A stretch of 64,000 bases of DNA. Source: an uncultured Bacteroidales bacterium (GTDB lineage: Bacteria > Bacteroidota > Bacteroidia > Bacteroidales > Bacteroidaceae). The notes under the pieces were generated by a model, which saw nothing but the letters and a program-made list of their open reading frames with translations, searched no databases and had not been told where the DNA came from. Made by a program: the position numbers and the translations under genes. Positions 19,460 to 48,000 of the stretch are shown piece by piece; within the stretch, counting starts at the first letter, position 1, and every line of letters starts with the position of its first letter. The stretch covers positions 1 through 64,000 of the forward strand of contig CACZJU010000009.1 in the NCBI GenBank assembly GCA_902781515.1. The letters are read 5' to 3'.

Positions 19460-19491
19460 TTTGTATTTGTGCTCACTTAATCGTATCTTTG
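19460..19491 (+). promoter_or_regulatory. Promoter inside a dispersed repeat
   Basis: TTTG (19460-19463) and TATCTTTG (19484-19491) are 20 bp apart, a full Bacteroidetes promoter. The segment GTGCTCACTTAATCGTATCT also occurs, in reverse, near 23.77 kb and near 47.63 kb. Nothing protein-coding starts for 300 bp, so it probably drives the structured RNA downstream and possibly the small gene at 19807. Confidence 0.6.
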
Positions 19492-19806: not shown

Positions 19807-20085
19807 ATGGAAGCTATTGATTTTAAACCAATTGTAAAAACTCTACCAAAAGAGTTTACATCACACATGTTCATTAAAGCATATATTCGGGAGAATGAAG
19901 CCGAATATATAAGTAAGTTAAGACCCAAGAAAGGAGGTTTCCGAGAGTTGAATAGCTATATTGGCCAGTTACTGGAACGAGAGCAAAGTTTCTTGGAAAT
20001 CTGCAAAGGAAAGGACCCTGTAAAGGATGAAAATCTAAAAGGGTACATTAGTGATAATGCAAAATGGACAAGAATCGACATATAG
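19807..20085 (+). CDS. Small protein of unknown function (92 aa)
   Basis: ATG at 19807 opens a 92-residue, lysine- and glutamate-rich, probably helical cytosolic protein without signal peptide or cysteine motif. A central stretch (KPKKGGFRELNSYIGQLLER-like) is basic. I do not recognise a family. The gene lies 89 bp after the structured RNA and 10 bp before the BspA-like gene on the same strand; base composition is AT-rich like that gene, unlike the cobalamin genes on either side. Confidence 0.55.
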   Translation: MEAIDFKPIVKTLPKEFTSHMFIKAYIRENEAEYISKLRPKKGGFRELNSYIGQLLEREQSFLEICKGKDPVKDENLKGYISDNAKWTRIDI

Positions 20086-20095
20086 ATATACGATT

Positions 20096-21841
20096 ATGAA
20101 ATACTTGATAAAGACTTTACTTATTGCCGTATTTAGCATAGTGGCAAGTGAGACTTTTGCCCAACATTTTAAGGTAGACAATATCTACTATAGCATAGAT
20201 AGACTTACTGGAGGGGTAAGAGTAACGAATGGAGGAGACAAGTCCAATTCGTATTCTGACGAGTATCGAGGAGATATTGTTATCCCAGACTCTGTGACAT
20301 ACATGGGTCGTACTTATACTGTCACGTCCATTGATATAAAAGCTTTTTCAGGCTGTACTAGATTGACCTCTGTCGTCATCCCTAAAGATGTAAAGGATAT
20401 ATTCGGTGAAGCCTTTGAGGGCTGTACTGGATTAACAGCAATATCACTCCCTGATAATGTTAAGATGTGGTATAATGTCTTTGCTGGATGCACAAACCTA
20501 TTTCAAAAATCCGATAGTATGATGATTAATACGACTCGCCTTGTCGTAGATACCTTAAAAGCAGAAGAGATATTCAATTCGGATATTAAACCAAGTCTTA
20601 TAAAAGAATACGAAAAAGGCACTGCAAAACAGAAAAGAATTGAAGAAATACAATGCTCGGAACAGAAAAAGGTTAAGACACCTGAGGACTTAGACCTGTT
20701 AAACCAGGCATACATGAGATATTTGCTTAAAGACTATGGTACAATTGACAAATACCATAAGGTAGAAATCAAATCCGAAAAAATCCCATCGTTAAAACAG
20801 CCAGTTTATGCCATAGATTTTTTTAGAAAAGAAGAATCTGGCTGGTTTTTTGAAGGTAGAAAACCAATTTCAACCGATAATAATGTGGCGAAAGGCGTTC
20901 TGACTTCCGAAGTTAGGCAGTATCTTGCCTTCTATGATGGATGGCTCAAAGATAGCCTGAAGGCTGAACACCATAAAATAGATTGGGGTTGGACCGAAGG
21001 ATTTGATAAAGAAAAGCTTCCACGTAAGGAAATTATCGTCCCTATTCGAAACTCTTTTTATCGAGGTTCATTTTGGTATTTTGAATATATTGGGATGTAT
21101 GAGGAATTTCAGCAAAAGAAGGGTTGGGAGTTTCTCTACACTGAAGACGGTAAATACCACGATGACTCATACCCTGTAAAGATTGGATATTATGTTTACG
21201 ATTCGCATTCTAATTATAGAGTGATACGTGATGAAGACAAAATTGAAGGTGTTTATGATAGTCAAGGGAATCTGGTCTATATTCCTTTATTGAATAGGAA
21301 TCAGTATGATGAGTTCGTTAGTATCAAGAGATTGGTATACCTTAAGGACTATTTGAGAAACAAATATGAAATCCATTCTCAGCCAAAAGAAACTCAAGAT
21401 TATATAAAATACGAACTCAGTAAAGGCTTCGAATCAGAAAATAATGGAAGTGATTTGTTTTCGTCAATGATTGCAGCAGCATTGATAGGTTCTGCTGCGG
21501 ATGAATTATTGTCTCCAGTTAATGCCCATAAGGTTAAAAATAAGACAAAAGAATATACAATAAATAGTCTTTCTCAAAATACGAAACCTAGATGGGATAA
21601 AACAGGAGAAAATTATATTGCACAATTAGAAAAAGACCATACAGATGATTTTGGTTATGTATATATGATAGAACGTCTTTCCAATGTAAGTTTCAGGGTA
21701 GTGTATCTCAATAAACAGACATTGAAACCATCTTATTGCGCTGTAATAACTTATCGTACAGGGGAGAAACCTTATACAGTTAAATTCTCTACAAAGTTAG
21801 TAGATATGCCAAGTGATATACCTCCCGTAATACGTGAGTAA
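20096..21841 (+). CDS. Secreted BspA-like leucine-rich repeat protein
   Basis: The ATG at 20096 starts a signal peptide (MKYLIKTLLIAVFSIVASETFAQ). Residues ~40-140 hold leucine-rich repeats of the BspA/LRR_5 kind: IVIPDSVTYMGRTYTVTSI, AFSGCTRLTSVVIPKDV and AFEGCTGLTAISLPDNV. The remaining ~440 residues are unknown, hydrophilic and lysine/tyrosine-rich, with one alanine-rich segment (SMIAAALIGSAADELL). LRR_5 proteins are surface adhesins or envelope proteins in this phylum. The gene is clearly AT-richer than its neighbours, which suggests separate acquisition. It ends before a bidirectional terminator. Confidence 0.75.
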   Translation: MKYLIKTLLIAVFSIVASETFAQHFKVDNIYYSIDRLTGGVRVTNGGDKSNSYSDEYRGDIVIPDSVTYMGRTYTVTSIDIKAFSGCTRLTSVVIPKDVKDIFGEAFEGCTGLTAISLPDNVKMWYNVFAGCTNLFQKSDSMMINTTRLVVDTLKAEEIFNSDIKPSLIKEYEKGTAKQKRIEEIQCSEQKKVKTPEDLDLLNQAYMRYLLKDYGTIDKYHKVEIKSEKIPSLKQPVYAIDFFRKEESGWFFEGRKPISTDNNVAKGVLTSEVRQYLAFYDGWLKDSLKAEHHKIDWGWTEGFDKEKLPRKEIIVPIRNSFYRGSFWYFEYIGMYEEFQQKKGWEFLYTEDGKYHDDSYPVKIGYYVYDSHSNYRVIRDEDKIEGVYDSQGNLVYIPLLNRNQYDEFVSIKRLVYLKDYLRNKYEIHSQPKETQDYIKYELSKGFESENNGSDLFSSMIAAALIGSAADELLSPVNAHKVKNKTKEYTINSLSQNTKPRWDKTGENYIAQLEKDHTDDFGYVYMIERLSNVSFRVVYLNKQTLKPSYCAVITYRTGEKPYTVKFSTKLVDMPSDIPPVIRE

Positions 21842-21909
21842 TTGGTAAATATACTCCATGTTTTCGTCTATCGGCAAGTTTATGCGTCAAATTCCACTGC
21901 AAAAGTATG

Positions 21910-21935
21910 ATTTTTTGCCGACATCGGCAAAAAAT
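21910..21935. terminator. Bidirectional intrinsic terminator
   Basis: TTTTTTGCCGA (21911-21921) and TCGGCAAAAAA (21924-21934) form a perfect inverted repeat with a GC core flanked by T-runs on each strand. It sits between the convergent BspA-like gene and cbiJD, and can end both transcripts. Confidence 0.85.
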
Positions 21936-21944
21936 GAGACGTTT

Positions 21945-23681
21945 TTAATTATTTCTTAATAGTAGGATGGTAAGTTTGCCCTTGGGAAGGAGTGGCGCGC
22001 AATGCTCATAGCAATGTTGGACAACAACTTTACTAAAGCGAGCAGCCTCCTCGGGCGAAAGGATGTCCCAAAGTTCGCGAACGACAGTTATGTTTAGAGG
22101 TGAGAGGTCACAATTGGCCTCACGAAGAAGTTGGGCAATGAATTCTTTGTCCATGACTACACGGCGACTATGGGTGTCGAGGTGACCTTGGGCAAGTTTC
22201 ACGGCCTTACCTATCATAATTCCGAGAGTGACATGATAAAACTCCAACTCTTCAGCCATTTTTAATGTTTCGCCGATATAATTGCCATATTCCACGAAAG
22301 CCTGTTGAGGAAGGTCGGGGTAGAGGGAGCGAAGTTGTTGCTCGCTCTTCATGCCACTACCGATGACAACGCGTTCAGAGCCGCTTGCCTTTGCTACCTC
22401 CATGCACTTGCGGATGCTCTGTATGAAAGCCTCCTCCGAGTAGGGTTTGACGATGCCCGAAACGCCGATGATGGAGATGCCGCCCTCAATACCCAATCGT
22501 GGGTTGAAAGTGCGCTTGGCAATGTCCTTTCCGTTTGGGACGGAAAGAACAATTGATAATGGATAATTGACAATTGACAATTGCTCAAGGTTCTTGCGAA
22601 TCATCTCGCGTGGAGCCTTATTGATAGCTGCTTCACCAGGTGGGAAGTCGAAGCCTGGGAGGGTAAAGCGGCCCACGCCCTCGCCGCCTTCTATTACTAA
22701 CCACTCCCCTCCTTTCGGGAGGGGCTGGGGGTAGGCCTGTGCCCTCACCTCGATGCCATCTGTCACATCTGGGTCGTCGCCTGCCTCCTTGATACAGTAG
22801 GCATATCCTTCACCATAGCCAACGGACACAGTGATGGTTTCGCCATTGGGTAAAAGCACAGGAACTTCGTCAGGCATTTCATTGCGCAGAAGGCGGATAG
22901 TTGCTGCAACTGCGGCTGCAGTGGCACATGTTCCAGTAGTAAGTCCACTATGCAGGGGGTAGAACTCAGGCAGCAGGCGCTCCACCATGCGGCGTAGTCC
23001 GTATTCGCCATTAACGACGTGGAACGACTGAGGCATTGGTGGACGTCGCAAGGCGACGACGCGCATACCCTTGGCCTTGGCGGCGGAAACTTTCTCTACG
23101 AAACCGCCGCTTGTGCCGCTCTCCTTCAACAGGATGGCATCGGCCTCGACGGGTATTTCCCCAGCCTCCTCGTAGTAGCAAAGTTGTTCTGGCCTTGCGC
23201 CCTGCGTAAGCGCCAGCCTGACTGACGACTCGCGGTCGAGAATGCGATAAAACACAGTGATACCGCTTTCCTCTAAACGCCTGAACCTCTTGATGCTCTG
23301 CACGCCGGTGGTGGCCAAAAGCGATTGGATGTCAGTGGGCACTTCCGAATAGTCGTCAATCCACGTGATGTCGGGGTCGCGCGGTGGATAGATGCGTTCG
23401 AAGCGGATGACAGGAATCTGTAGGGAACAGGCAACTTCTGCGATGGTCTGGTGCAGGACACTGGCAAAGGGGTGAGCCGCATCCACAACGAGCCGAATCC
23501 CGTGCTCACCGCAGAACGCTTCCATTGTCTCCTTGTCCATCGCACCGTCCGTGCGCCGCCCGTGGTGCATCGCCACGTCCTGCTCGCCCGTCTTGGTCGA
23601 ATACCAATACAGGCTTCCCGCCTCTTCCAGTGCCCTGATGGCCCTGCGCCCCTCCGTCGTGCCGCCGAATACAAGTATCAT
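21945..23681 (-). CDS. cbiJD: CbiJ-CbiD fusion: precorrin/cobalt-precorrin-6A reductase + cobalt-precorrin-5B C1-methyltransferase
   Basis: The ATG at 23681 gives MILVFGGTTEGRRAIRALE, the CobK/CbiJ start. Residues ~1-245 are the reductase (VVDAAHPFASVLH, RFRRLEESGITVFYRILD, LKESGTSGGF). From about residue 250 comes CbiD (SGLTTGTCATAAAVAA, GEAAINKAPREMI, SIIGVSGIVKPYSEEA). Two repeat insertions disturb the CbiD half: an AATTGACAATTGACAATTG-type block at 22549-22583 (QLSIVNYPLSIV) and a GC-rich palindromic block at 22701-22736 (YPQPLPKGGEW). The promoter at 23687 leaves almost no leader. It is a single gene apart from the other cobalamin operons. Confidence 0.93.
   Translation of the reverse strand: MILVFGGTTEGRRAIRALEEAGSLYWYSTKTGEQDVAMHHGRRTDGAMDKETMEAFCGEHGIRLVVDAAHPFASVLHQTIAEVACSLQIPVIRFERIYPPRDPDITWIDDYSEVPTDIQSLLATTGVQSIKRFRRLEESGITVFYRILDRESSVRLALTQGARPEQLCYYEEAGEIPVEADAILLKESGTSGGFVEKVSAAKAKGMRVVALRRPPMPQSFHVVNGEYGLRRMVERLLPEFYPLHSGLTTGTCATAAAVAATIRLLRNEMPDEVPVLLPNGETITVSVGYGEGYAYCIKEAGDDPDVTDGIEVRAQAYPQPLPKGGEWLVIEGGEGVGRFTLPGFDFPPGEAAINKAPREMIRKNLEQLSIVNYPLSIVLSVPNGKDIAKRTFNPRLGIEGGISIIGVSGIVKPYSEEAFIQSIRKCMEVAKASGSERVVIGSGMKSEQQLRSLYPDLPQQAFVEYGNYIGETLKMAEELEFYHVTLGIMIGKAVKLAQGHLDTHSRRVVMDKEFIAQLLREANCDLSPLNITVVRELWDILSPEEAARFSKVVVQHCYEHCAPLLPKGKLTILLLRNN
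22549..22583. repeat. AATTGTCAATT-type repeat inside cbiJD
   Basis: Tandem units of AATTGATAATGGATAATTG and ACAATTGACAATTG type are identical in kind to those between genes at 36.70, 43.97 and 7.94 kb. Here they lie in frame within CbiD and add about 11 residues. Confidence 0.8.
22701..22736. repeat. GC-rich palindromic repeat inside cbiJD
   Basis: The core is CCCCTCCTTTCGGGAGGGG followed by CTGGGGGTAGGC. A near-identical reverse-complement copy (about three mismatches in 36 bp) lies inside cbiET at 36465-36500. In cbiJD it is read as PQPLPKGGE. Confidence 0.85.
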
Positions 23682-23686
23682 AGGTA

Positions 23687-23718
23687 CAAAGGTAGTGCAA
23701 ACCGAGCGAAAACACAAA
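23687..23718 (-). promoter_or_regulatory. Promoter of cbiJD
   Basis: On the minus strand TTTG (23715-23718) and TACCTTTG (23687-23694) are 20 bp apart. The -7 element ends only 5 bp before the ATG at 23681, so transcription should start at or next to the start codon. No riboswitch is present upstream. Confidence 0.65.
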
Positions 23719-23797
23719 TTTTATTTGATTTTTCCGAGGTGCAGCCTATCTTCAGCCATATGGCTAAAGATACGATTAAGCGAGCAAAATGCCAAAC
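23700..23797. repeat. Dispersed intergenic element, copy 1
   Basis: The element shares with the one at 47507-47652 a left part (GAGCGAAAAC, CAAATTTTATTTG-like, TTCCGAGGTGCAGCCTATCT) and a right part (GATACGATTAAGCGAGCAAA). Between them is a short inverted repeat, TATCTTCAGCCAT / ATGGCTAAAGATA, a plausible hairpin. The left end forms the -33 region of cbiJD. Confidence 0.7.
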
Positions 23798-23832
23798 TTA
23801 ATAAATAAAAATATTCCTGCTATTTCGTTTTC

Positions 23833-24672
23833 CTACCGATTCTGTCTGACGAGCTCCATGGGAGCCATCCCCGTGATGCGCCGGAACGTGCGACCGAAGT
23901 ACGAAACGTTCTCATAGCCCACCATGGCCGCCACCTGCTTGACCGACTTCCGCTCCGACACGAGGAGCAACTGCGCCTGCGTGATGCGTCGGCGGATGAT
24001 GTAGTCGGTGGGCGTGGTGCCTGTCTGGCGGCGAAACAGGCGGATGAAACTGTCCTTCGTCATGCAGGCTTCGTCGGCCAGACGGTCCAGAGAGGGCACG
24101 TGCGCCAGGTCGTTGTTGACGACCCACAGCGCCTGCAGGATGCGCTTGTCGCTCACCGTGCGCGGACGCGCTTGAGCAAAGAAGTGGGACAGAAGGATTT
24201 GCAGCAGGCCGCTGATTTCCATTTGTCGGGCCACGGGCCGCTGCTGGAAGTCCTTGATGCCTTGCAGGATGCGGGTCGAGGCCTCGTAGTTCCGGGGATC
24301 CTTGTTCTTCAGCGCCAGTTCGGGAGCCAGCCTCGTCAGATAGCGGACGATGCGCTCGTCCACCTCTGTGGCAGGGATGATGAGGGGAAACTGGTTTTGG
24401 TGATAGAGGTCGAACACCTGTCTGGAGGCATCCAGAAAGTGCAGGTAGTAGTGGCCGAACGCCCCATCGCAGTGAACGTTGTGTGTGGTGAAAGAGGGTA
24501 TCAGGCACAGGTGTCCCGGCCGCAGTTCGTGGGTCTGGCCGACGAAGGTCACTTCGCCCCTGCCTTCCGTCACCCAATAGATGCGAGAGAAGGGGCTGCA
24601 GACGCGTTCGTAGTTCCAGTCGCCCTGGTGGTGCGAGTGCCCGATGTTGAGCAACTTGAAATCGTAGTTCAT
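23833..24672 (-). CDS. AraC-family transcriptional regulator
   Basis: The ATG at 24672 (MNYDFKLLNIGHSHHQ) is chosen over an upstream frame that runs into the divergent promoter region. Residues ~1-160 form a cupin-like sensing domain (IYWVTEGRGEVTF, LRPGHLCLIPSFTTHN), and ~180-279 the two helix-turn-helix units: SLDRLADEACMTKDSFIRLF and VKQVAAMVGYENVSYFGRTF. It is divergent from the beta-galactosidase gene, the usual arrangement for a local regulator that responds to a sugar released by that enzyme. GC content is high, like the genes it faces. Confidence 0.9.
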   Translation of the reverse strand: MNYDFKLLNIGHSHHQGDWNYERVCSPFSRIYWVTEGRGEVTFVGQTHELRPGHLCLIPSFTTHNVHCDGAFGHYYLHFLDASRQVFDLYHQNQFPLIIPATEVDERIVRYLTRLAPELALKNKDPRNYEASTRILQGIKDFQQRPVARQMEISGLLQILLSHFFAQARPRTVSDKRILQALWVVNNDLAHVPSLDRLADEACMTKDSFIRLFRRQTGTTPTDYIIRRRITQAQLLLVSERKSVKQVAAMVGYENVSYFGRTFRRITGMAPMELVRQNR

Positions 24673-24780
24673 GGTATAGACTTCTCGATAGGCAAAGATA
24701 GGCATTATTTTGGGAAAACATGCTATCAGAGGGGGTAAATCTGTCACAATATCGACTATTCGTGTCATTATCGGAGGTAA

Positions 24781-27951
<3,171 letters not shown>

Positions 27952-27961
27952 CTAAAATACT

Positions 27962-30900
27962 ATGAAACAGCTATTTATAATTATGCTCGGTTGGCTGTCG
28001 CTGACTGCTACGGCACAGACCGACGTCACAGCTAACTACCTCACTGACTACACCTTCGACAGCGGTTTCCACCACAAGGCTAGCGAAACGACCAAGGTGG
28101 ATAAGGAAATCAAGACCATCAAGGGATGGACACAGGGTTTCACCGTCGATTACACCATCACTGGCATCTATGAGTACGGTTTTGCCGGTACGTTCAACGG
28201 CGGAGAAGTGCCCGCACAGGGCTACGAAGGCTCGACGGGCGGCGCACTCGCCCTATCCACCGGCTGGGGTGTGGAGATGACCTACAGCCAGACCGTCACT
28301 TTGCCCGCTGGTGTTTATACGTTTTCGGCACCTACCTACAATGGGAAAAGTGCCACAAAGGGCCATTCGCTGTTGGCATGGATTCCGCAGAAAGGCGATG
28401 CCGTTGTCTCCACGCTTAACGGATATCCCTCGAAGACGTGGACGCTGGACCAGATAACTTTCACGCTGACTCAGGAGACTCAGGGCAAGATTCAGATCGG
28501 TTATCGGTCTGCCGAAAATGCAGGTTCGGGCAGTTCGGCCAATCTGCTCATCGACTACGTCCAGATTATAGCCAAAAGCATGGCAGACTGCAAGGCAGAA
28601 CTCGTCGCTACGCTGACTGAGGCCCGAAAGCAGTACGCCGACGGAACGGGGCACGGAGCCGATGAGTTGAAGACGGCCATTGACCGTGCCCAGACCGTCT
28701 GTGATGACGAAGAAACTCCGATGGATGTCATCCTGCAGGCCCATGAGAACCTGAAAAAAGCCTTGGCAACCTATCTATGGCTCAATGCCTCGGAGACTTC
28801 GCCCGTGGATTGTACCGCTGACTATCTCGCGAATCCTTCGTTCGAGGTTGACGGAACGGCGGGCTGGACAGCCAAGGGCATGAACCCTCAGAGCAACAAC
28901 GTCTTTACCAAGAAACAAGGTACCTACTACATGGAAGCCTGGACCAGCATTGGTAACAAGATAGGCGACGTGTTGCTTTATCAGACCGTCAGGAATCTGC
29001 CTTGCGGACGGTATCGCCTGAAGGCCAATGGCCTGCACATTCAGCAAAGCGGCAGTGGCAGCATCACGAACCAAGGCAAGGCTCAGACCGGCGCATGGCT
29101 CTATGCAGGGCTGTCGCAGACCGTCGTCACCAGCATGAAGACCTACGCCGTCGATTTCTCTATCGTGGAGACCGGCGAATCCATAGAGGTGGGGGTGAAA
29201 ACCACAAGTCCGACGGGCAACTATCTGTGTGTCGATGACTTCCACCTCTATTACTTAGGCGAGGCTGACGTCAACGACATGGTGCAGGCCCTGCACGACT
29301 TGATGATATACGCCCAGACGGTCCAAGGGCGGAAGATGCAGCAGACAGCTAACGATGCCCTTGTAGCTGCGCTGGAAGCATCGCAAAAGGCATTGGCCGG
29401 AACGGGCACCGACGACGAAAGCCAAACCACTTACGACTCGGATGCCCTTGCCGAGGCACGCACGGCACTGCAGCAGGCATTGGAGGGAGCCGAGGCTTCC
29501 CATGCCCTCTATGTGGCTCTTGAGGAACGCATCGCATACGCCGGCAAAGTCCTGAAATGGTGGCAAGGCATGGAGCGAAAGGCCAAGGCATGGGAGACAC
29601 TTTCTGAAGCCGTGACCACAGCCAGGGAACAGGACACCGACCTCACACTCACCGATGCCCAACTGAAATCGGCCACAACTTCGCTCAACACGCGCATCAA
29701 GGCCGTCGATAAGAAGATTTATTGCAGCGGTAGTGCCTGTGGTTCAGATGCCAAGTTGCAGGACAACAGCAACCAGTGGTCCTACATGCGCTCCTATCAG
29801 TCGAAGCACTGGGTGCTCTTCTGGGAGAAGGACTATGGCGACGAAGTGCCAAGCGCCGTTCCAGGCATATTGGATACTGCCGACAAGATTTTCGAGATGT
29901 ATGCCGACAAACTCGGCTTCATCACCATCAACCAAGGGAAGTCGAAGAGCGACACCTATAAGATGATCATTCGCCTCTTCTCCACCTCTGAGTGGAAAGC
30001 CGAGGGCAGCGGCATCGACAACCAGATAGGTATGCTCTCGCTCTCTCGCTGGGCCTACACCTCGCGCGGCGGTCAGACCGTGGCCCATGAGATAGGTCAT
30101 TGTTTCCAGTACCAGGTCCACTGCGACAAGGGCGACTGGAACGGATGGATGTACAACTGGCACGAATCCACGCAAAACCCCTTCTGGGAGATGTGTGCCC
30201 AGTGGATGGCCTACGTCTATTACCCCAACAAACTGCTCAACGACAACGAATGGCTGTGGAACTCGCTCAACGGCATGCACCGCCATCCGCTGGCCGGCTA
30301 TCTGCGCTATGAGAACTTCTTCATTCAGGACTGGTTCGTACACAAGCACGGATGGGACGCCATAGGTCGCCTCTGGAACGACTGCAAGGACCCCGAAGAC
30401 CCCTTTGAGACCTACATGCGCACCCGCATGACGGGCGGTGTGGCACAGAAGGTCAGCCAACTGGGCGACGAGATGTGGGAGTGGGGTGCCCGCATGACCA
30501 CCTTCGACCTCGACCCCATTCGCGCCACGGCCGAGGGCAAAGCCAGTTGGCGCAGCCAGACGTCGCTTACGAAGGATGCCGACGGCTACTGGTGGCCCGA
30601 GAAAAAGCACTGCATCGAGAACTGGGGAAACAACGCCATTCGGTTGAATGCGCCTGCCAAGGACAAGACCCTCTACGTCGAATTTGAGGGCAAGGCTGGG
30701 GCCGAGGGCTATACCGCTTATAATACCACGCGCGCGGGATGGCGCCTCGGATTCGTAGCCTTCAAGAGCGACGGCACGCGCATCTATGGCGACATCCACA
30801 AACCCACCTACAGCTCGCCCGACTGCACCGTCGCCTTCGACTGCCCAGGTGGCTGCAGCCACGTCTGGCTCGTAGTGAGCGGAGCCCCTACAACCTACTG

Positions 30901-31168
30901 GACGCGCAACCTGACCAACTGGGTGGAGAGCACAGCCGAGCAGTGGCCCTACCGCGTCAAGTTCCACCAGACCAACGTCTATGGGGAGGCCAACAATAAC
31001 ACACTACCCACCGGCGTGGAGAACGTTCCCGACGCTCAACCTTCAAGGTTCGCGGACAACAACGTCTATTCCCTCACCGGACAGCTGATTCGCCGTGGCA
31101 CCATATCGACAGAAGGACTGCCCCGCGGCATCTACATCGTAGGCGGCCGCCGCGTTGCTGTAAAGTAA
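27962..31168 (+). CDS. Large secreted protein with HExxH metallopeptidase motif (DUF6055-like)
   Basis: The 1068-residue protein has a signal peptide (GWLSLTATAQ), beta-sandwich carbohydrate-binding-like modules (~20-200 and ~285-440, e.g. NPSFEVDGTAGW), helical FIVAR-like linkers (~215-270 and ~440-590), and from ~600 a domain beginning YMRSYQSKHWVLFWEKDYG. That domain holds TVAHEIGHCFQYQ (~residue 709), a zinc-peptidase signature, followed by WHESTQNPFWEMCAQW with a possible third ligand. The C-terminus has NVYSLTGQLIRRG ... GIYIVGGRRVAVK, a Bacteroidetes secretion tail. It is probably co-transcribed with the GH2 gene, so a glycoprotein substrate is plausible (inference). DUF6055 is named from memory of the family's SKHWVLFWE-like start. 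Confidence 0.75.
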   Translation: MKQLFIIMLGWLSLTATAQTDVTANYLTDYTFDSGFHHKASETTKVDKEIKTIKGWTQGFTVDYTITGIYEYGFAGTFNGGEVPAQGYEGSTGGALALSTGWGVEMTYSQTVTLPAGVYTFSAPTYNGKSATKGHSLLAWIPQKGDAVVSTLNGYPSKTWTLDQITFTLTQETQGKIQIGYRSAENAGSGSSANLLIDYVQIIAKSMADCKAELVATLTEARKQYADGTGHGADELKTAIDRAQTVCDDEETPMDVILQAHENLKKALATYLWLNASETSPVDCTADYLANPSFEVDGTAGWTAKGMNPQSNNVFTKKQGTYYMEAWTSIGNKIGDVLLYQTVRNLPCGRYRLKANGLHIQQSGSGSITNQGKAQTGAWLYAGLSQTVVTSMKTYAVDFSIVETGESIEVGVKTTSPTGNYLCVDDFHLYYLGEADVNDMVQALHDLMIYAQTVQGRKMQQTANDALVAALEASQKALAGTGTDDESQTTYDSDALAEARTALQQALEGAEASHALYVALEERIAYAGKVLKWWQGMERKAKAWETLSEAVTTAREQDTDLTLTDAQLKSATTSLNTRIKAVDKKIYCSGSACGSDAKLQDNSNQWSYMRSYQSKHWVLFWEKDYGDEVPSAVPGILDTADKIFEMYADKLGFITINQGKSKSDTYKMIIRLFSTSEWKAEGSGIDNQIGMLSLSRWAYTSRGGQTVAHEIGHCFQYQVHCDKGDWNGWMYNWHESTQNPFWEMCAQWMAYVYYPNKLLNDNEWLWNSLNGMHRHPLAGYLRYENFFIQDWFVHKHGWDAIGRLWNDCKDPEDPFETYMRTRMTGGVAQKVSQLGDEMWEWGARMTTFDLDPIRATAEGKASWRSQTSLTKDADGYWWPEKKHCIENWGNNAIRLNAPAKDKTLYVEFEGKAGAEGYTAYNTTRAGWRLGFVAFKSDGTRIYGDIHKPTYSSPDCTVAFDCPGGCSHVWLVVSGAPTTYWTRNLTNWVESTAEQWPYRVKFHQTNVYGEANNNTLPTGVENVPDAQPSRFADNNVYSLTGQLIRRGTISTEGLPRGIYIVGGRRVAVK

Positions 31169-31205
31169 GATAAAGTTTTGTGTTTCGCGCTCATCACTCA
31201 ATGCG

Positions 31206-32123
31206 GTGGTGAAACATGCTCTGTCGCACGAGGGATATGTGGGTGGATGGTTGGACGGCGAGACAGGACTCTACTATTTCGACAGTACGCGACTATTTCC
31301 TGAGGACTCCATCGTGGCAGCCCTGCTCTTTGGGTTGGACAATGGGCAACGTTGCGCTTACATCCTGTCATCAGGTACGGAAATAGACCTCCATGCACTC
31401 ACAGAGATACGCCAGCGTGGACGTTTGCTTGTGGGCACGACGGGCGACTACAGACCGCTCTCGTTCGTGGAACCAGAAACACATGAGTATTGGGGCTTCG
31501 GCATTGACTTTGCCCGACTGATTGCCGAGCGACTGGGCGTTGAGCTGGAATTTGTGCCCACTTCGTGGCCCACGCTCTCCAACGATGTGCTCAGCGACCC
31601 ACCGACCTTCGACCTGGCTTTGGGCGGCATCACCATCACCGAGGCACGGAAGCAGACGATGCTCATGTCTGAAGGGTATCTGGCCAATGGTAAGACCATC
31701 CTCTGCCGTAAAGAAGACGCTGGACGATTCCGTTCGCTCAGCGACATCGACAAGCCAGAAGTGACGGTAGTGGTGAATCCTGGTGGTTTGAACGAGGCTT
31801 TCGCCCGTGAGCACCTGACACAGACGAACATCGTGGTTCATGCCCGTAACGAAGAGATTCCGAACCTGATAGCCGAGGGACATGGTGATGTGATGATAAC
31901 GGAGATAACTGAAGTTCCTTACTATGTCCGGGTCGACGAACGACTGGCCGCGCCCCTGCTGGCATCGCCCTTAACACGCGGCGAGATAGGAGTCCTAATG
32001 CGCCCTGAACAGGAAGGACTGCTGACCTTTGTCAATGCCGCCATCCGAGAGATGAAGGCTGATGGCACGCTGTGCCGCCTGTGCGAGAAGTATGGACTGG
32101 TCTATGCCTACGGTTTGGAGTAA
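31206..32123 (+). CDS. Cyclohexadienyl dehydratase-like (PheC) protein with extra N-terminal module
   Basis: From about residue 75 the protein matches PheC-type cyclohexadienyl dehydratases, a periplasmic-binding fold that makes phenylpyruvate or phenylalanine from prephenate or arogenate: LLVGTTGDYRPLSF, PTSWPTLSNDVL, LALGGITIT, VVVNPGGLNEAFAREHL, and DVMITEITE (catalytic-glutamate region). There is no signal peptide. Residues ~1-60 (GYVGGWLDGETGLYYFDSTR) resemble a small module met in plasmid- or phage-type Bacteroidetes proteins. No ATG is available: the frame is open back to the preceding gene's stop, and GTG 31206 or 31209 must serve, so the N-terminus may be a fusion scar. It overlaps the convergent HxlR gene by 16 bp. 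Confidence 0.72.
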   Translation: MVKHALSHEGYVGGWLDGETGLYYFDSTRLFPEDSIVAALLFGLDNGQRCAYILSSGTEIDLHALTEIRQRGRLLVGTTGDYRPLSFVEPETHEYWGFGIDFARLIAERLGVELEFVPTSWPTLSNDVLSDPPTFDLALGGITITEARKQTMLMSEGYLANGKTILCRKEDAGRFRSLSDIDKPEVTVVVNPGGLNEAFAREHLTQTNIVVHARNEEIPNLIAEGHGDVMITEITEVPYYVRVDERLAAPLLASPLTRGEIGVLMRPEQEGLLTFVNAAIREMKADGTLCRLCEKYGLVYAYGLE

Positions 32124-32482
32124 GCATCAATGACGACCTGATGGGCGACCACGTCGTCGAAGTGGTCAAGTGCCCACTGGATGAGTTGGTGGAGGGATGG
32201 CATAAGAGAGCGGCCTGTCTCCGTGAGGCTGTACTCGACACGGGGCGGCACCTCGGGAAAGACCTCGCGGTGGACGAGGTTGTAGTGCTCCAGGTTCTTC
32301 AGTGTCTGCGAAAGCATCTTCTGAGAGCAGTCCGTCATCATGCGGCGCAGTTCGTTGAAGCGCATCACGCCCGTCTCGCTGCGGTCGATGCCGTAAAGCA
32401 CCAGGAGCGACCACTTGTCGCCGAAGCGACTGATGATTTGCCTTATCGGACAGGCCATGTATTCCACCTTGATATCTGCCAT
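32108..32482 (-). CDS. HxlR-family winged-helix regulator
   Basis: The ATG at 32482 gives MADIKVEYMACPIRQIISRFGDKW. The conserved N-terminal cysteine (ACPIR) and GDKWSLLVLYGI, then RFNELRRMM, SQKMLSQTLKNLE and VEYSLTETGRSL, identify HxlR. Such dimers sense electrophiles, aldehydes or quinones, often through the cysteine. The gene is divergent from the cupin / FMN-protein pair, and a palindrome overlaps its own promoter, so autorepression and control of the pair are likely. Confidence 0.9.
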   Translation of the reverse strand: MADIKVEYMACPIRQIISRFGDKWSLLVLYGIDRSETGVMRFNELRRMMTDCSQKMLSQTLKNLEHYNLVHREVFPEVPPRVEYSLTETGRSLMPSLHQLIQWALDHFDDVVAHQVVIDAYSKP

Positions 32483-32514
32483 AATCCTTAGTATTTCTTG
32501 CTGAACATCGCAAA

Positions 32515-32531
32515 GGTAACTAAAAGTTACC
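32515..32531. promoter_or_regulatory. Operator 1: palindrome over the hxlR promoter
   Basis: GGTAACTAAAAGTTACC is a perfect inverted repeat (7-3-7). On the minus strand it runs into TACCTTTG, the -7 element of the HxlR gene, so a bound dimer would block that promoter. Confidence 0.75.
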
Positions 32532-32613
32532 ATACCGCCAAATGTTTTGGAATGTTAATGTGTGTTAACGTCAGAAACGCCTCGTCTCGTCGTGATGCCA
32601 ATTCCTACTTTTT

Positions 32614-32628
32614 GGTAACCGAGTTACC
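32614..32628. promoter_or_regulatory. Operator 2: palindrome upstream of the cupin promoter
   Basis: GGTAACCGAGTTACC repeats the same half-site (GGTAAC/GTTACC) with a 3-bp spacer instead of 5. It lies about 36 bp upstream of TACCTTTG (32665-32672), the -7 element for the cupin gene. This spacing suits either activation or repression. Confidence 0.7.
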
Positions 32629-32751
32629 GTGCGGTGCCTTCTTGCACGGGTCGAAAGTTCGCCGTACCTTTGCACCAGCAAAAACGAAAGAGAATCATAA
32701 AAGAGACAACAAGAACAACAATAAACAACATTAATTAAACAATAAAAGACT

Positions 32752-33204
32752 ATGAGAAAGATTGAGACAATCAAGACGGGTGAGAACTACAGCGCCGTGA
32801 GCGTAGGTCGAATCAATGAAATCATCGAGCACAAGTTGTCTATGGGTCCCGTGACCATTCAGGGCAAGGTGTTTGCCGGACAGGCTGTGGGTGCTACAGG
32901 CAGTGAACTGTCGTTCCAGACGCTCGTGCCCGGGCAGGACAGCGGTTTCCTGCACACGCACAAGACCCACGAGGAACTATATATCATCCTGAAAGGCGAG
33001 GGCCTGTATCAGGTAGATGGCGAGCAGTTCCCCGTATCGGAGGGCACCATAGTCCGCGTGGCTCCCAACGGTAAGCGCGCACTGAAGAATACAGGCCGGG
33101 ACAACCTGACCATGCTCTGCATCCAGTACAAGGCCAATGCCTTCACGGAGTCCGATAGCCCCATGACGGACGGTATCATCCTGCAGGACAAACTGAAGTG
33201 GTAA
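32752..33204 (+). CDS. Small cupin-domain protein
   Basis: This 150-residue single-domain cupin shows the first motif in HTHKTHEELYIILKGEG (two histidines and a glutamate for metal) and the second in PVSEGTIVRVAPNGKRALKN; the second-motif histidine is absent, so metal binding may be weak. There is no signal peptide. Its control by an HxlR regulator and its link to an FMN-binding protein suggest a role in handling a reactive small molecule, but the substrate is unknown. The stop lies 4 bp before the next gene. Confidence 0.85.
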   Translation: MRKIETIKTGENYSAVSVGRINEIIEHKLSMGPVTIQGKVFAGQAVGATGSELSFQTLVPGQDSGFLHTHKTHEELYIILKGEGLYQVDGEQFPVSEGTIVRVAPNGKRALKNTGRDNLTMLCIQYKANAFTESDSPMTDGIILQDKLKW

Positions 33205-33208
33205 ACGG

Positions 33209-33664
33209 ATGGAACGAGCACTTGACTTTCTGCGCAAGCACAATGAGGTAGCCTTCGCCACGGTGGGTGGCGAAGGCACGCCCGTGCCTAAGTTGCGCAT
33301 CTTCCAGGTGATGAAGCAGGAGGGCACGACGCTCTACTTTGCCACTTCGGCACGCAAGGCCGTATGGACGGAACTACAACAGAACCCGAACGTAGAACTG
33401 GTGGCGTACGCCGACAATATTTCCGTGCGTTGCGCAGGCATGGTGAACTTTCATGTCCCCGACGACGTGAAGCGCTGGATATACGACCACAATGCCGTGC
33501 TTTCGCGCCTTTATGAGCGGTACGACCAGATGGAATACTTCGCCCTGTCCATTGCGGAAATGGACTACTACGACCTGTCGCCCACTCCGCCCCTGTTCCT
33601 CCACTTCGACCTCATGACGGGCGAGACGGGAAAAGGATTTGTCGGCGAACGCTACAGCAAATAG
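33209..33664 (+). CDS. Pyridoxamine 5'-phosphate oxidase-like flavin-binding protein
   Basis: The 151-residue protein has the split-barrel fold signature: ALDFLRKHNEVAFATVGGEG, PKLRIFQVMKQEGTTLYFATS, KAVWTELQQNPNVELVAYAD. Such small proteins bind FMN or F420-like cofactors and act as general reductases, often of quinones or nitro compounds. Translational linkage to the cupin and control by HxlR fit a small electrophile-detoxification unit. True pyridoxine synthesis is unlikely at this length. Confidence 0.85.
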   Translation: MERALDFLRKHNEVAFATVGGEGTPVPKLRIFQVMKQEGTTLYFATSARKAVWTELQQNPNVELVAYADNISVRCAGMVNFHVPDDVKRWIYDHNAVLSRLYERYDQMEYFALSIAEMDYYDLSPTPPLFLHFDLMTGETGKGFVGERYSK

Positions 33665-33686
33665 TTTCTCCTAAATCTTTTCTTGG

Positions 33687-35471
33687 TTATTCCCCACCTT
33701 GACCCTTTCGGAAGAGGTGGGTGAAATGTTTGTTATACAGTTCCGATAGTCCGTGGCGGTTGTCGATGGCCTCGCCCACGACAAGCATGGTGGTGAGCGT
33801 GAGGTGGTTGTCATGGACTATGCGGGCAAGGTCTTTCAGTTGGCCGCGATATATCTTCTGGTCGGGCCAAGTCAAATGATAACAGGCAGCAACTGGAGTG
33901 TCCTCTGGGTATTCCTGCAAGAGTTCGCGCTGCACTTCGTCAACAATAGCCGCAGAGAGGAAGATGCACATCGTACTCTGACTCTTTGCCAACAGATGAA
34001 GTTGCTCCTTCTCGGGCATGGGAGTACGACCTTCGCCACGGGTTAGGATGATTGTCTGTGTGCGCTCAGGAATCGTAAACTGACTACGCAACTCAGCAGC
34101 CGCTGCAAGGAAGGAAGATATGCCGGGAGTGATATGATATGACATATTGTTGGCATCGAAGAAAGCCATCTGCTCCTGTATGGCACCGAAGATGCAGGGA
34201 TCGCCGGTATGCAGACGAACTATGAAATGACCTTTGTCGTAATGCTCCTTCATCAACGCGCATTGCTCCTCAAGATTCATATCAGCCGATGACCGCACCA
34301 CAGCACCAGGCTTATGACATTCGGTGAGAGCCTTAGGCACTAAAGAGCCTGCGTATAATATAAGGTCGGCCTTCTCAAGCATCTTGCGACCTCTTACTGA
34401 TACCAAGTCTGGGGCACCAGGACCTGCACCAACAATCTCAATATGGCCCTGTTGGTTTCTGAGATGACAATAATCGATGGCAAGGGCTGCTGTCCAGTTC
34501 TTTCCCTTAATCTTTGGAATGATGAGTTTGCCGTGATTGGAGCCGAGGATAGCAGCAGCCTCACAGACGCTGGGCGTACCAACATGTTTCGCAACAGTAT
34601 TGCTCGGATTTGGAACTTCGACAGCGGCAAGTTCCTCGGCAGTATAGAACATTACTTCTTCATCATATTCGTCTTCAAGCATTGCACAAAAATCCTCGTC
34701 CTCTTTTACATCGATAGTACAATAGCGGTGAGAACAAGGAAGAATACCTCTTTCTGCAAAAGCCTCATCGATTTCGTCATAAATGGATATATAATTCTCT
34801 GGGTGATGTGCCAAGCCAAAGCCTATAGTTCCCACCATTGGCACGAAATGAAGTTCGAGCATACCATAAGGTGCAGAGCGATTGTATGGCGATACTATAA
34901 TCAATAGTTTGTATTTCCTCGGATCGGCTTCGTGGATGTCATTGATAATGGTCACGTGGTCTGGCTTGGTTGACTCCAGATAGTCGGTACCCTCGTCGCG
35001 AGCCTCCAGTAGCAGAGCCGTTGGTTTACGATTAACGAAAGCAAAGATGCAGTCGTTCATATCATCGATATCACTGGCTACAGGCCAGTCGAAGCGCTGC
35101 TCAAATGTATCTAAAGCCCATAGTCCGGCATTGTCGCTTTGAGTGGTGATAACATCATGGGCTCCAAGAATACCAGCAATATCTCGCGTCAGCTCATTAG
35201 CACCTCCAATATGACCACTGAGCACGGATATGACATTCTGCCCCATCGAGTCGATACAGACTACTGCAGGGTCTTCGTGCTTATCCTTGACATAAGGCGC
35301 AATCGTACGGACACAGATACCCATAGCTCCGATGAATACGAAAGCATCGAACTGCTTCCATTCCTTGCCAACATCTGTGCGTTGGATGGTTGTGGCATAT
35401 AGTTGGCGCTTTAGCGTAGCAGCTATATCGCCACCAGCCTCGCAAATCTGTATAATCGCTATCTTCTGCAT
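33687..35471 (-). CDS. cbiGF: CbiG-CobM(CbiF) fusion: cobalt-precorrin-5A hydrolase + precorrin-4 C11-methyltransferase
   Basis: Residues ~1-335 are CbiG, which opens the ring lactone and releases acetaldehyde: FVFIGAMGICVRTIAPYV and VISVLSGHIGGANELTRDIA are typical, and the C-terminal CbiG part follows (VCEAAAILGSNHGKLIIPK). Residues ~345-594 are the SAM-dependent C11-methyltransferase: IEIVGAGPGAPDLVSVRG, LHTGDPCIFGAIQEQM, YHITPGISSFLAAAAEL. It is the last gene of the riboswitch operon, overlapping cbiET by 13 bp. The fusion places consecutive steps in one chain, as in other Bacteroidetes. Confidence 0.95.
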   Translation of the reverse strand: MQKIAIIQICEAGGDIAATLKRQLYATTIQRTDVGKEWKQFDAFVFIGAMGICVRTIAPYVKDKHEDPAVVCIDSMGQNVISVLSGHIGGANELTRDIAGILGAHDVITTQSDNAGLWALDTFEQRFDWPVASDIDDMNDCIFAFVNRKPTALLLEARDEGTDYLESTKPDHVTIINDIHEADPRKYKLLIIVSPYNRSAPYGMLELHFVPMVGTIGFGLAHHPENYISIYDEIDEAFAERGILPCSHRYCTIDVKEDEDFCAMLEDEYDEEVMFYTAEELAAVEVPNPSNTVAKHVGTPSVCEAAAILGSNHGKLIIPKIKGKNWTAALAIDYCHLRNQQGHIEIVGAGPGAPDLVSVRGRKMLEKADLILYAGSLVPKALTECHKPGAVVRSSADMNLEEQCALMKEHYDKGHFIVRLHTGDPCIFGAIQEQMAFFDANNMSYHITPGISSFLAAAAELRSQFTIPERTQTIILTRGEGRTPMPEKEQLHLLAKSQSTMCIFLSAAIVDEVQRELLQEYPEDTPVAACYHLTWPDQKIYRGQLKDLARIVHDNHLTLTTMLVVGEAIDNRHGLSELYNKHFTHLFRKGQGGE

Positions 35472-36697
35472 CGTAATATGGTAATTGGGTGATTGTCGTT
35501 AAGTTGTATTCTTATTGGTGGGTCATGTCTAAGCCCTAATTCTGCGCAGGCTTCATCCCAAAGTTGACGACTATCGGTAAGCACCTTGGGAGCAACGACG
35601 CTGTTCATCACTATCACGCCTTCAGGAGCCAACACGGTCAGCACCTTCACCATGATTTCCTTCAGACATCCGCCGTGACCGCCGATGAAGACGGCATCGG
35701 GGTGTGGAAGTTCACTGATATCTGTTGTGAGGAAGTTGCCAATATGGACATTGATACCCGGAGCTCCAAAGCGACGGGAATTCTTTTGTATGATGACCTC
35801 GCACTCCGGACGAATCTCGAAAGCCTCTATCTGTAGATGAGGAAACTGGAGACGGGCCTCAATGGAAACGCTACCTGTGCAGAAGCCTATGTCCCAAAGT
35901 ACATGTCTCTTAGGAAGATCGAGAGCCTGAAGCGTCAATAAACGGATAGGCATTTTGGTTATCATCTTCTCACGACCATCAAGGAGGGTAAATTCGGTAT
36001 CGGGGAGACCGAATTTAGAGGTGAGAGGTAAGAGGTGAGAGGTGAGAGACTCTACAATCACGCAATTCGGAATAGAAACTTCTTGACGGGTGGCTTCTTC
36101 GAGGGATAGCGTGGTTACCTTTTCCTCGTTGGGATTACCCAAATGTTCACCAATGTGCATCTGATAATCCTTATATCCATATTCAAACATGCGCTGGGCA
36201 ATAGCCGATGGTGTATGTTCGCGGTCGGTAAGAATTCCTATCTTGTCAGCTCGTTCGATGAGCGCACGGTCGAACTCCTGCCAAGGACGGCCCGTAAGCG
36301 AAACTATACGCATATCATGATAGGGCATCACCAACTTATGAGCCAACATTTGCAGAGAGTTGAAGGTTGGATAAACAACTATATCAGCCTCTGGAATCTT
36401 CCGCTTAATGGTATTGGCAAAACCAAAGAACAACGGGTCGCCGGAGGCAAAGACGATAATACAGCCTACCCCCATCCCCTCCCCAAAGGAGGGGAGTTGT
36501 GAATACTGTTTGAATACATCATCAAGGGGTACGGTGATGTCTATCCATTGGGCATCGGATGGGAGCAACGGAGCAACTATCTCGTGATGACGTTTGCCAC
36601 CTGAGAATACTTTGCCGTTCTTGATAATCTCCAACACCTCTGGAGTGAACCAAGGCTGCGGATTATCCGTAATTCCTATTACAATGAATCTAATCAT
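35459..36697 (-). CDS. cobL: CbiE-CbiT fusion: precorrin-6Y C5,C15-methyltransferase (decarboxylating)
   Basis: The ATG at 36697 (MIRFIVIGITDN) is preferred to one at 36706 within the AT repeat. The N-terminal CbiE domain has ASGDPLFFGFANTI and SLTGRPWQEFDRALI; the C-terminal CbiT domain has the SAM motif LWDIGFCTGSVSIEA and DAVFIGGHGG. Two repeat insertions are visible: a GC-rich palindrome (36465-36500, encoding LPSFGEGMGVG) within CbiE, and a GAGGTGAGAGGTAAGAGGTG-like tandem (36014-36050, encoding SLTSHLLPLTS) between the domains. The enzyme motifs lie outside both. Confidence 0.94.
   Translation of the reverse strand: MIRFIVIGITDNPQPWFTPEVLEIIKNGKVFSGGKRHHEIVAPLLPSDAQWIDITVPLDDVFKQYSQLPSFGEGMGVGCIIVFASGDPLFFGFANTIKRKIPEADIVVYPTFNSLQMLAHKLVMPYHDMRIVSLTGRPWQEFDRALIERADKIGILTDREHTPSAIAQRMFEYGYKDYQMHIGEHLGNPNEEKVTTLSLEEATRQEVSIPNCVIVESLTSHLLPLTSKFGLPDTEFTLLDGREKMITKMPIRLLTLQALDLPKRHVLWDIGFCTGSVSIEARLQFPHLQIEAFEIRPECEVIIQKNSRRFGAPGINVHIGNFLTTDISELPHPDAVFIGGHGGCLKEIMVKVLTVLAPEGVIVMNSVVAPKVLTDSRQLWDEACAELGLRHDPPIRIQLNDNHPITILRCRR
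36014..36050. repeat. GAGGTGAGAGGT tandem repeat inside cbiET
   Basis: Degenerate units of about 10 bp (GAGGTGAGAG, GTAAGAGGTG) run in frame between CbiE and CbiT. The same unit, on the other strand, forms the insert in cobS at 17.03 kb, and both give LTSHL-type peptides. Confidence 0.8.
36465..36500. repeat. GC-rich palindromic repeat inside cbiET
   Basis: GCCTACCCCCATCCCC followed by TCCCCAAAGGAGGGGAGTTG is nearly the reverse complement of the copy in cbiJD at 22701-22736. Relative to the coding strand the two copies lie in opposite orientation and encode different peptides. Confidence 0.85.
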
Positions 36698-36731
36698 AAT
36701 TGTCAATTATCAATTATCCATTGTCAATTAG
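36698..36731. repeat. AATTGTCAATTATCAATT spacer repeat
   Basis: The whole spacer between cobJ-cbiC and cbiET consists of AATTGTCAATTATCAATTA-type units, the same family as at 43.97 kb and within cbiJD and cbiA. Confidence 0.75.
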
Positions 36732-38135: not shown

Positions 38136-38215
38136 TGAAGATTAATATTGAAGATTGAACACAAGGGCAAAGATACGAAATAATTATGAAGTTTTAATTA
38201 CGAATTACATTTTTA

Positions 38216-47455: not shown

Positions 47456-47493
47456 AATACCTTTATATATTTAATTTTACTACTTTCGGGCGA

Positions 47494-47525
47494 CAAAGAT
47501 AGTGCAAATTGAGCGAAAAGTCAAA
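47494..47525 (-). promoter_or_regulatory. Promoter of glyS
   Basis: The minus strand has TTTG (47522-47525) and TATCTTTG (47494-47501) 20 bp apart, about 40 bp before the glyS ATG. The -33 side lies in the dispersed element shared with cbiJD. Confidence 0.65.
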
Positions 47526-47652
47526 TTTATTTGAACATTTCCGAGATGCAGCCTATCTTCTTGCTCCGTTTCACTACGCAAGCGCTTCGCGATTACGAGA
47601 CTACGTAGTAGGCTCAGAGATACGATTAAGTGAGCACAAAACCAAAATAAAA
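47507..47652. repeat. Dispersed intergenic element, copy 2
   Basis: The left part (GAGCGAAAAG, CAAATTTATTTG, TTCCGAGATGCAGCCTATCT) and right part (GAGATACGATTAAGTGAGCA) match the element at 23700-23797, but the middle is longer. The middle holds CACTACGCAAGCGCTTCGCG and ATTACGAGACTACGTAGTAG. The first of these is shared with the insert inside cobS near 16.99 kb, so the element is a mosaic of smaller repeats. Confidence 0.7.
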
Positions 47653-47689: not shown

Positions 47690-48000
47690 CCCTACCTCCA
47701 CAAGGTCTAGACCTTATTGCCATAAGGCCTGCGTCTTCTTGCCGTAAGACCTAGGTCTTGTAAATGCTGTCATTAACCCTAAAAAAACTTGTCTTCATAT
47801 AAACCCTAACAAACTATTTTCAGGCAAAACAGATAAATATTATCTCTGTCCACAAGTTAATATTACCTGTGTGCATAGGTTAATATTACCTGTGTGCATA
47901 GGTTAATATAACTTACCTGTATAGGTTCTAGTACTTGTTTCGATATGTACTACTACCTGTAGCAATAAGGACTAGTACCTTGTGATTATCCTGTCAGTGT
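47690..48000. repeat. Intergenic array of degenerate palindromic units
   Basis: This gene-free stretch holds AAGGTCTAGACCTT, AAGACCTAGGTCTT and a run of units such as AGGTTAATATTACCTGTGTG (about 22 bp, ~47867-47925), then further CTAGTAC-containing palindromes. The units are not separated by unique spacers of fixed length and there are no cas genes. Function unknown. Confidence 0.65.

Follow-up and report, generated by a model that had tools for sequence, protein, structure and literature searches.

A short GC-rich palindrome that lies in frame inside both cbiJD and cbiET is probably a dispersed, REP/REPIN-like hairpin element that spreads by insertion, most likely through catalysis by RAYT-like proteins, with the peptide that it encodes carried as a tolerated passenger. 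Both genes lie in the window, by which we mean the whole stretch of 64,000 nucleotides that was analysed; the MAG from which the window comes comprises 2.46 Mb in 46 contigs and is 86% complete. Because the relatives of its CbiET in named genomes come mostly from rumen Prevotella, the host can be taken, by inference, to be a Prevotella-like MAG. The two copies of the element and the genes that hold them are:

22701..22736, minus strand: palindromic element in cbiJD, with C-arm CCTACCCCCAG at 22718-22735 and hairpin CCCCTCC..GGAGGGG at 22706-22724; encodes AYPQPLPKGGE
36465..36500, plus strand: palindromic element in cbiET, read from the element's opposite strand; encodes LPSFGEGMGVG
21945..23717, minus strand: cbiJD, the ORF holding the first copy; Pfam CbiD (1e-83) and CbiJ (2.5e-42)
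35459..36706, minus strand: cbiET, the ORF holding the second copy; Pfam TP_methylase (8.5e-10), a tetrapyrrole methylase domain

The first-pass annotation had reported that the cbiJD block recurs in cbiET with about three mismatches, in opposite orientation relative to the coding strand, and is read as PQPLPKGGE in one protein and LPSFGEGMGVG in the other, and our results bear this out. The sequence CCCCTCCTTTCGGGAGGGG, at 22706-22724 on the plus strand, has a 1-mismatch match at 36476-36494 on the minus strand, and with up to 3 mismatches allowed there are 2 matches in the whole window, as compared to a mean of 0.01 in shuffled sequences (2 or more in 0 of 100 shuffles). The adjoining arm, CCTACCCCCA(G/T)CCCCTCC, likewise has 2 matches, at 22718-22735 (minus strand) and 36465-36482 (plus strand), vs. 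0.11 expected. Aligned by eye, the two copies, of about 36 bp each, show about 3 differences. With both genes on the minus strand, the element is in opposite orientations relative to coding: cbiJD reads its C-arm strand and cbiET the other strand. As single-stranded DNA hairpins, the cbiJD copy has a folding energy of -9.7 kcal/mol (z -1.94) and the cbiET copy -9.0 kcal/mol (z -3.20). A profile search of PDB with the CbiET family matched its second half to solved CbiT-type / precorrin-6Y C5,15-methyltransferases; the CbiT half alone was matched, and the CbiE linker received no placement on a solved structure. A known structured RNA was rejected as the identity of the element, there being no Rfam match at gathering scores in window positions 20000-40000.

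The block had also been read as a dispersed palindromic repeat, a reading that absence of any further genomic copies would contradict; a search of the whole genome with the strict pattern CCCCTCCN{2,8}GGAGGGG finds 15 sites, and a control search with the reversed pattern finds 0. According to our own ORF calls, as distinct from annotation, 12 of the 15 strict copies overlap ORFs (L001, L002, L004, L006, L007, L008, L014, L032 and L039, together with L283 near an N-terminus and L285 and L287 at C-terminal ends), and three lie outside (L003, L009 and L286). A second set of copies, chosen by similarity to the window copies, comprised 28 loci (an initial 15 and 13 further ones), from which L038 and L033, arm-like matches without the palindrome, were dropped to leave 26. 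Of these, 22 are in ORFs, and the four outside (L003, L005, L009 and L028) begin, by eye, 1-4 nt past an apparent stop codon. Apparent signal peptides or N-termini, again assigned by eye, hold six copies (L006, L030, L032, L034, L035 and L037), and lipoprotein signal peptides are among the element-bearing sites. Pfam matches identify two-copy host ORFs as a transcarbamylase (with an inverted pair), a glutamate synthase and a WbqC-like protein, and further host ORFs as an acyltransferase, a phosphopantetheinyl transferase, a MATE transporter, a CTP synthase, OmpH and DUF4837; in a FeoA-FeoB ORF the element sits between domains, and in an ORF of the aldehyde-dehydrogenase family the Pfam match is confined to the part upstream of the element. 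Stretches from three high-copy relatives, 393 kb in total, contain 23 strict palindromes (0 with the reversed pattern), 8 inside ORFs and 15 outside, and ORFs cover 89-93% of these stretches; many copies in relatives are at ORF ends. The relatives thus show a bias to intergenic places, whereas the host genome shows no such bias, and the 15 of 23 copies outside ORFs indicate that, in some genomes at least, genes do affect where copies insert or survive.

The conserved unit exceeds CCCCTCCTTTCGGGAGGGG and has the form GCCTACCCCCA(G/T)CCCCTCC..loop..GGAGGGGAG. The element, in which a C[CT]AC-CCCC arm precedes a CCCCTCC..GGAGGGG hairpin, occurs singly or as an inverted pair with arms outward. By eye, 21 of the 26 aligned copies have C[CT]AC 5' of the hairpin, which places GT[AG]G on the 3' side when the other strand is read. 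In a scan with a pattern that included the arm, all 12 of 12 close pairs were inverted and convergent with arms outward: 7 of 7 in the relatives' stretches, with spacers of 86-120 bp, and 5 of 5 near the host's own copies, with spacers of 27-65 bp. Single copies are also common (16 in the three relatives' stretches). Two pairs tested fold as long single-stranded hairpins, with energies of -25.1 kcal/mol (z -2.96) and -31.5 kcal/mol (z -5.59). RNAalifold, applied to the alignment of 26 copies, gives 0 consensus pairs and does not support a shared stem, likely reflecting stems placed out of register by unequal loop and arm lengths.

The first-pass annotation had further proposed that the block is extra, in-frame sequence at both sites, a proposal at odds with any finding that homologues share the same residues there. 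Alignment of homologues shows that sequences without the residues exist at both sites. For CbiET, we fetched 80 homologous loci, dropped L072 (site not parsed), and compared 79 plus the window, 80 sequences in all; in 11 of the 80 the site is a 4-5-residue loop, such as HDEV or TANEI. For CbiJD, 15 of 29 homologues were readable by pattern at the site, the other 14 being excluded, and 10 of the 15 have 28 residues vs. 34 in the window. The palindrome at the CbiJD site is common to L043 and L055 and missing in L042 and L044, all at similar distance. The net gain in CbiJD is 18 nt vs. an element of 36 bp. The CTP synthase has about 13 residues more than the best PDB sequence. The transcarbamylase aligns with 1js1 in two blocks (1-167/1-167 and 191-344/166-316), a net gain of 25 residues that contains the inverted pair as one insert. 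Alignment of the glutamate synthase with 7mfm leaves two gap regions, one of 18 and one of 7 residues, on either side of native sequence, which argues that this pair was not inserted as one unit. In the same gene (L007:173-3019), the two inverted palindromes flank conserved native sequence. In view of the 18-nt gain in CbiJD and the native spacer in glutamate synthase, clean one-step insertion is not shown.

Each of the two genes has a second loop that holds repeat DNA, located by a tandem-repeat scan and by alignment:

22549..22583: 7-bp tandem repeat ACAATTG in the second cbiJD loop (EQLSIVNYPLSIV)
36017..36048: 7-bp tandem repeat AGAGGTG in the second cbiET loop (SLTSHLLPLTS)

The alignment shows that the second cbiJD loop is short in L044, L045, L047 and others, and holds a palindrome in L043. 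Some protein loops of gut Prevotella appear to have been filled with repeat DNA repeatedly. What the earlier reading missed is that the same loops in other species hold unrelated repeats, from which it follows that a loop's tolerance is as important as the element itself.

The CbiE linker illustrates this point across the 80 sequences. Assigned by rule, 11 linkers are empty, 36 hold a 7-bp tandem repeat, 13 hold a stem only (at least 6 bp) and 20 hold neither; 5 of the 36 sequences with a 7-bp repeat also carry a stem. When the inserts are shuffled, 0.4% satisfy the 7-bp rule and 3.7% the stem rule. Lags from 2 to 15 were compared for the 67 inserts that reach 24 nt or more: mean self-match is highest at lag 7 (0.57) and lag 14 (0.51), as compared to 0.24-0.31 elsewhere in that range. 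A quick CbiET tree was constructed with insert columns left out; of its 78 inner branches, 31 are open. On it, the four linker classes, set in part by hand, change 36 times or more (mean of 39.0 in shuffles, 30 of 200 of which go as low), and well supported branches alone force 8 changes for the 7-bp class, 5 for the empty class and 2 for the GC palindrome. The GC-palindrome label, hand-set for 13 rows, is somewhat clustered on the tree (9 changes vs. 12.2 in shuffles, 1 of 500 of which goes as low). Some well supported sister pairs have unlike linkers: L092 has a 7-bp repeat vs. an empty linker in L146, and L089 has a 7-bp repeat vs. a GC palindrome in L102. Linker inserts are present also in L088, L111 and L120, the record titles of which lack "MAG". 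The turnover between classes indicates that a tolerant loop and a supply of repeats both matter. Other palindromic or repeated inserts occur at this linker in L079, L101, L071, L074, L120 and L136, and inserts such as CCCAACGG-TTTT-CCGTTGGG and CGACCTTCAGGTCG are common to pairs of species.

Across 139 genomes of the genus, the strict pattern is present in 118, with up to 171 sites in one genome and 3,797 sites altogether (reversed control, 0-3), and in a sample of the phylum it is present in 133 of 296 genomes. The host genome has no Y1_Tnp match at E 0.001. Weak Pfam matches in relatives lead to proteins of about 340-470 aa in which MPDHxH and Y..DNP are invariant in 17 sequences, with a variable low-complexity stretch between the two motifs and some 150 aa more at the C-terminus; this C-terminal part (alignment L211-L227) has no Pfam match above cut-off in 5 sequences tested. 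NF047646, the NCBIfam model for REP-associated tyrosine transposases, matches 5 of 5 tested proteins (E 2e-6 to 4e-13), though no match reaches its curated cut-off. With a profile constructed from the 17 sequences, this RAYT-like family is found in 98 of 139 genus genomes and in 135 of 296 genomes of the phylum sample, where RAYT-like counts are lower bounds for genomes with only 14 (genus) or 6 (phylum) candidates scored. Outside the genus, none among the matches listed passes profile position 224 of 363, and the C-terminal part therefore looks confined to the genus, as judged from these matches. The host genome has two such genes:

L262:1692-2840 (G000:C10): RAYT-like gene 1, in which an 18-bp tandem repeat lies in frame (ATQDQR units), between HUH and Tyr motifs
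L261:1183-2289 (G000:C18): RAYT-like gene 2

The first match has two stops counted inside it, yet a 382-codon open frame holds the conserved motifs; the second is open for 368 codons.

With kinship ignored, palindrome count correlates with RAYT-like count across the 139 genomes (Spearman 0.53, p 1.7e-11; partial correlation 0.39 after genome size and completeness), and the median number of palindromes is 22 in the 98 genomes with RAYT-like genes vs. 3 in the 41 without. Neither control family behaves in this manner: DDE_Tnp_1 gives rho 0.10 (p 0.25, 139 genomes), and genomes with and without a strong classical Y1 match have palindrome medians of 15 and 13 (p 0.99). A general mobilome effect, for which DDE transposases served as control, was rejected for want of correlation with copy number, and a classical IS200-type transposase was rejected as driver, having neither a host Y1_Tnp match at E 0.001 nor, for strong matches in the genus, a link to copy number. 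The link is weak at the level of the phylum (rho 0.22, 295 genomes; Fisher p 0.23 for at least 10 copies), and within the genus there are exceptions, namely 8 genomes with RAYT-like genes and zero strict copies and, among the 43 genomes that have 30 copies or more, 3 that have no RAYT-like genes. Flanking of RAYT-like genes by the element was not found at the loci examined: of 32 loci, 3 have a strict copy, always at a distance of more than 900 bp from the gene. In only two of these, L242 and L248, a related GC-rich palindromic stretch directly follows the RAYT-like stop codon. We consider the RAYT-like proteins the likeliest, but unproven, mobilisers of the element.

Comparison with known systems places the element closest to REP/REPIN sequences and their RAYT (TnpA-REP) partners. 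In common with these it is a short (20-40 bp), GC-rich, high-copy palindrome (15 host copies, up to 171 in the genus) with copies near gene ends; its close pairs, in 12 of 12 cases, are two inverted units with outer tags, as in REPINs; the candidate family has an HUH motif, a catalytic-Tyr region and a profile match, as in RAYTs; and its copy number goes with that family. Unlike REPs, in which the tag is 5', the element has GT[AG]G 3' of the hairpin, and, unlike in REP/RAYT systems, it does not flank the RAYT-like genes. The element thus behaves as REP/REPIN-like but lacks the expected tag polarity and the flanked transposase. PMC3733652 describes intragenic REPs of the GTAG and CGTC types, over half of which form dimers or groups encoding 20-30 aa, as well as REPs near ORF 3' ends, with most REPs in intergenic space; like those REPs, some copies of the element are in frame inside unrelated genes, but most copies found in the host genome overlap ORFs. 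PMC6006769 describes in-frame REP insertions in transposase genes of TnpAY1 subclass 2.4 (RAYT group 4), a subclass abundant in Cyanobacteria and Bacteroidetes and associated with double-foot REPs. The Prevotella proteins resemble subclass 2.4 in belonging to Bacteroidetes and in having a variable stretch between HUH and Tyr motifs, but differ in the extra C-terminal part of about 150 aa and in PDHxH and Y..DNP; the element, with C[CT]AC 5' of the hairpin, has the reverse order to double-foot REPs. The first-pass annotation had compared the block with Rickettsia palindromic elements. The analogy stands insofar as both are palindromic repeats whose insertion in frame is tolerated by coding genes, but nothing supports kinship, no CGTC tag having been seen by eye among the aligned copies; sequence and tag differ, and the element is much shorter than RPE-1, which PMC3733652 describes as a longer palindrome. 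The likeness to REPs/REPINs is the closer of the two. The 7-bp tandem units in loops, a second repeat class and not a palindrome, resemble the heptamer direct repeats (such as TAACTGA) of PMC4679880, which describes heptamer repeats also in five Bacteroidetes and leaves their means of spread unexplained, but differ from them in comprising many different 7-mers in frame inside genes. Among the matches listed in a search of titles and abstracts of the open-access literature, which leaves subscription papers and preprints uncovered, neither the element nor REPs of Prevotella are described.

According to the hypothesis that the element is REP/REPIN-like, new copies would arise by single-stranded hairpin insertion regardless of gene boundaries, the insertion most likely being catalysed in trans by RAYT-like HUH transposases of the same genomes; selection would then keep copies that leave the frame open, and the kept copies would fall in surface loops, interdomain linkers, signal peptides and gene ends. 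The element would most likely be non-autonomous and selfish, and its peptide a tolerated passenger. No element site polymorphic within one species was seen, and mobility at the present day is therefore conjectural. An account that dispenses with a dedicated transposase, in which template switching, slippage or microhomology repair copies both hairpins and short tandem repeats to new places and only permissive loops keep them, is possible but clearly less probable. It has the appeal of a single mechanism for palindromes and 7-bp repeats at the same loops, and it accords with the composition of the CbiE linker (36 of 80 with 7-bp repeats, 13 with stem only, at least 36 class changes), with RAYT-like genes that are not flanked by the element, and with a net gain in CbiJD smaller than the element; against this, copy number follows RAYT-like genes and neither control family, and a unit of about 36 bp with a conserved arm and strictly convergent pairs has more order than slippage gives.

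Old relics, or selected RNA hairpins such as 3' end signals, occurring in genes also by chance and immobile now, would explain why, of the 26 copies chosen by similarity, 4 begin 1-4 nt downstream of an apparent stop codon and why copies in relatives are often at ORF ends, and would suit the modest clustering of GC-palindrome labels on the CbiET tree (9 vs. 12.2). We nevertheless regard this account as improbable: the CbiE linker is not the same in the well supported sisters L089 and L102, L043 and L055 have the CbiJD copy whereas L042 and L044, at similar distance, lack it, and in-gene copies cannot act as 3' end signals. That the shared sequence is not a DNA element but a protein motif under conservation, or coding sequence of low complexity that has converged, is hardly credible. 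Copies do occur in loops and signal peptides, and the reading LPSLGRGLGVG suits a signal peptide; the element DNA is, however, read in several frames and both orientations to give unrelated peptides, which indicates that the shared unit is DNA and refutes a protein motif, and copies are present outside genes too. Returning to the REP/REPIN-like reading, an extension in which a RAYT with the extra C-terminal part seen only in the genus drives hairpin insertion, perhaps seeds 7-bp arrays, and in this way refills permissive loops between species at high rate, is put forward tentatively and must be held doubtful.

If such RAYT-driven refilling occurs, repeat insertion would be a main source of change in loop length and sequence in core proteins across the genus. 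In-frame REPs are already known, mostly noted gene by gene; here, core enzymes are reached (glutamate synthase, CTP synthase, transcarbamylase), and one site, the CbiE linker, can be traced through 80 sequences as empty or as filled with one of several unrelated repeats. The loops provide a natural system in which to ask by what route mobile hairpins get into coding sequence, what preserves the frame, and whether the inserts have any effect, and the RAYT-like protein with the extra part provides a testable suspect for the spread of hairpins. For annotation, the results carry a warning: loop peptides of Prevotella such as LPSLGEGLGVG or QLSTLNSQLS can be repeat DNA rather than conserved motifs.

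The window contains further repeats. Of its 42 tandem-repeat rows, 15 repeat every 7 bp exactly, and their units are of many kinds; these 7-bp arrays span positions 10966-56232 and start at 10966, 12648, 12887, 15276, 15665, 17011, 22549, 36017, 36698, 38134, 43964, 52189, 53673, 54852 and 56200, and 7-bp repeats of this kind fill protein loops in related species. A direct repeat of 68 bp (82% identity) is present at 23686-23753 and 47493-47560, an inverted repeat of 32 bp (91%) at 19460-19491 and 47615-47646, and tandem arrays of 22-23 bp at 47713-47980.
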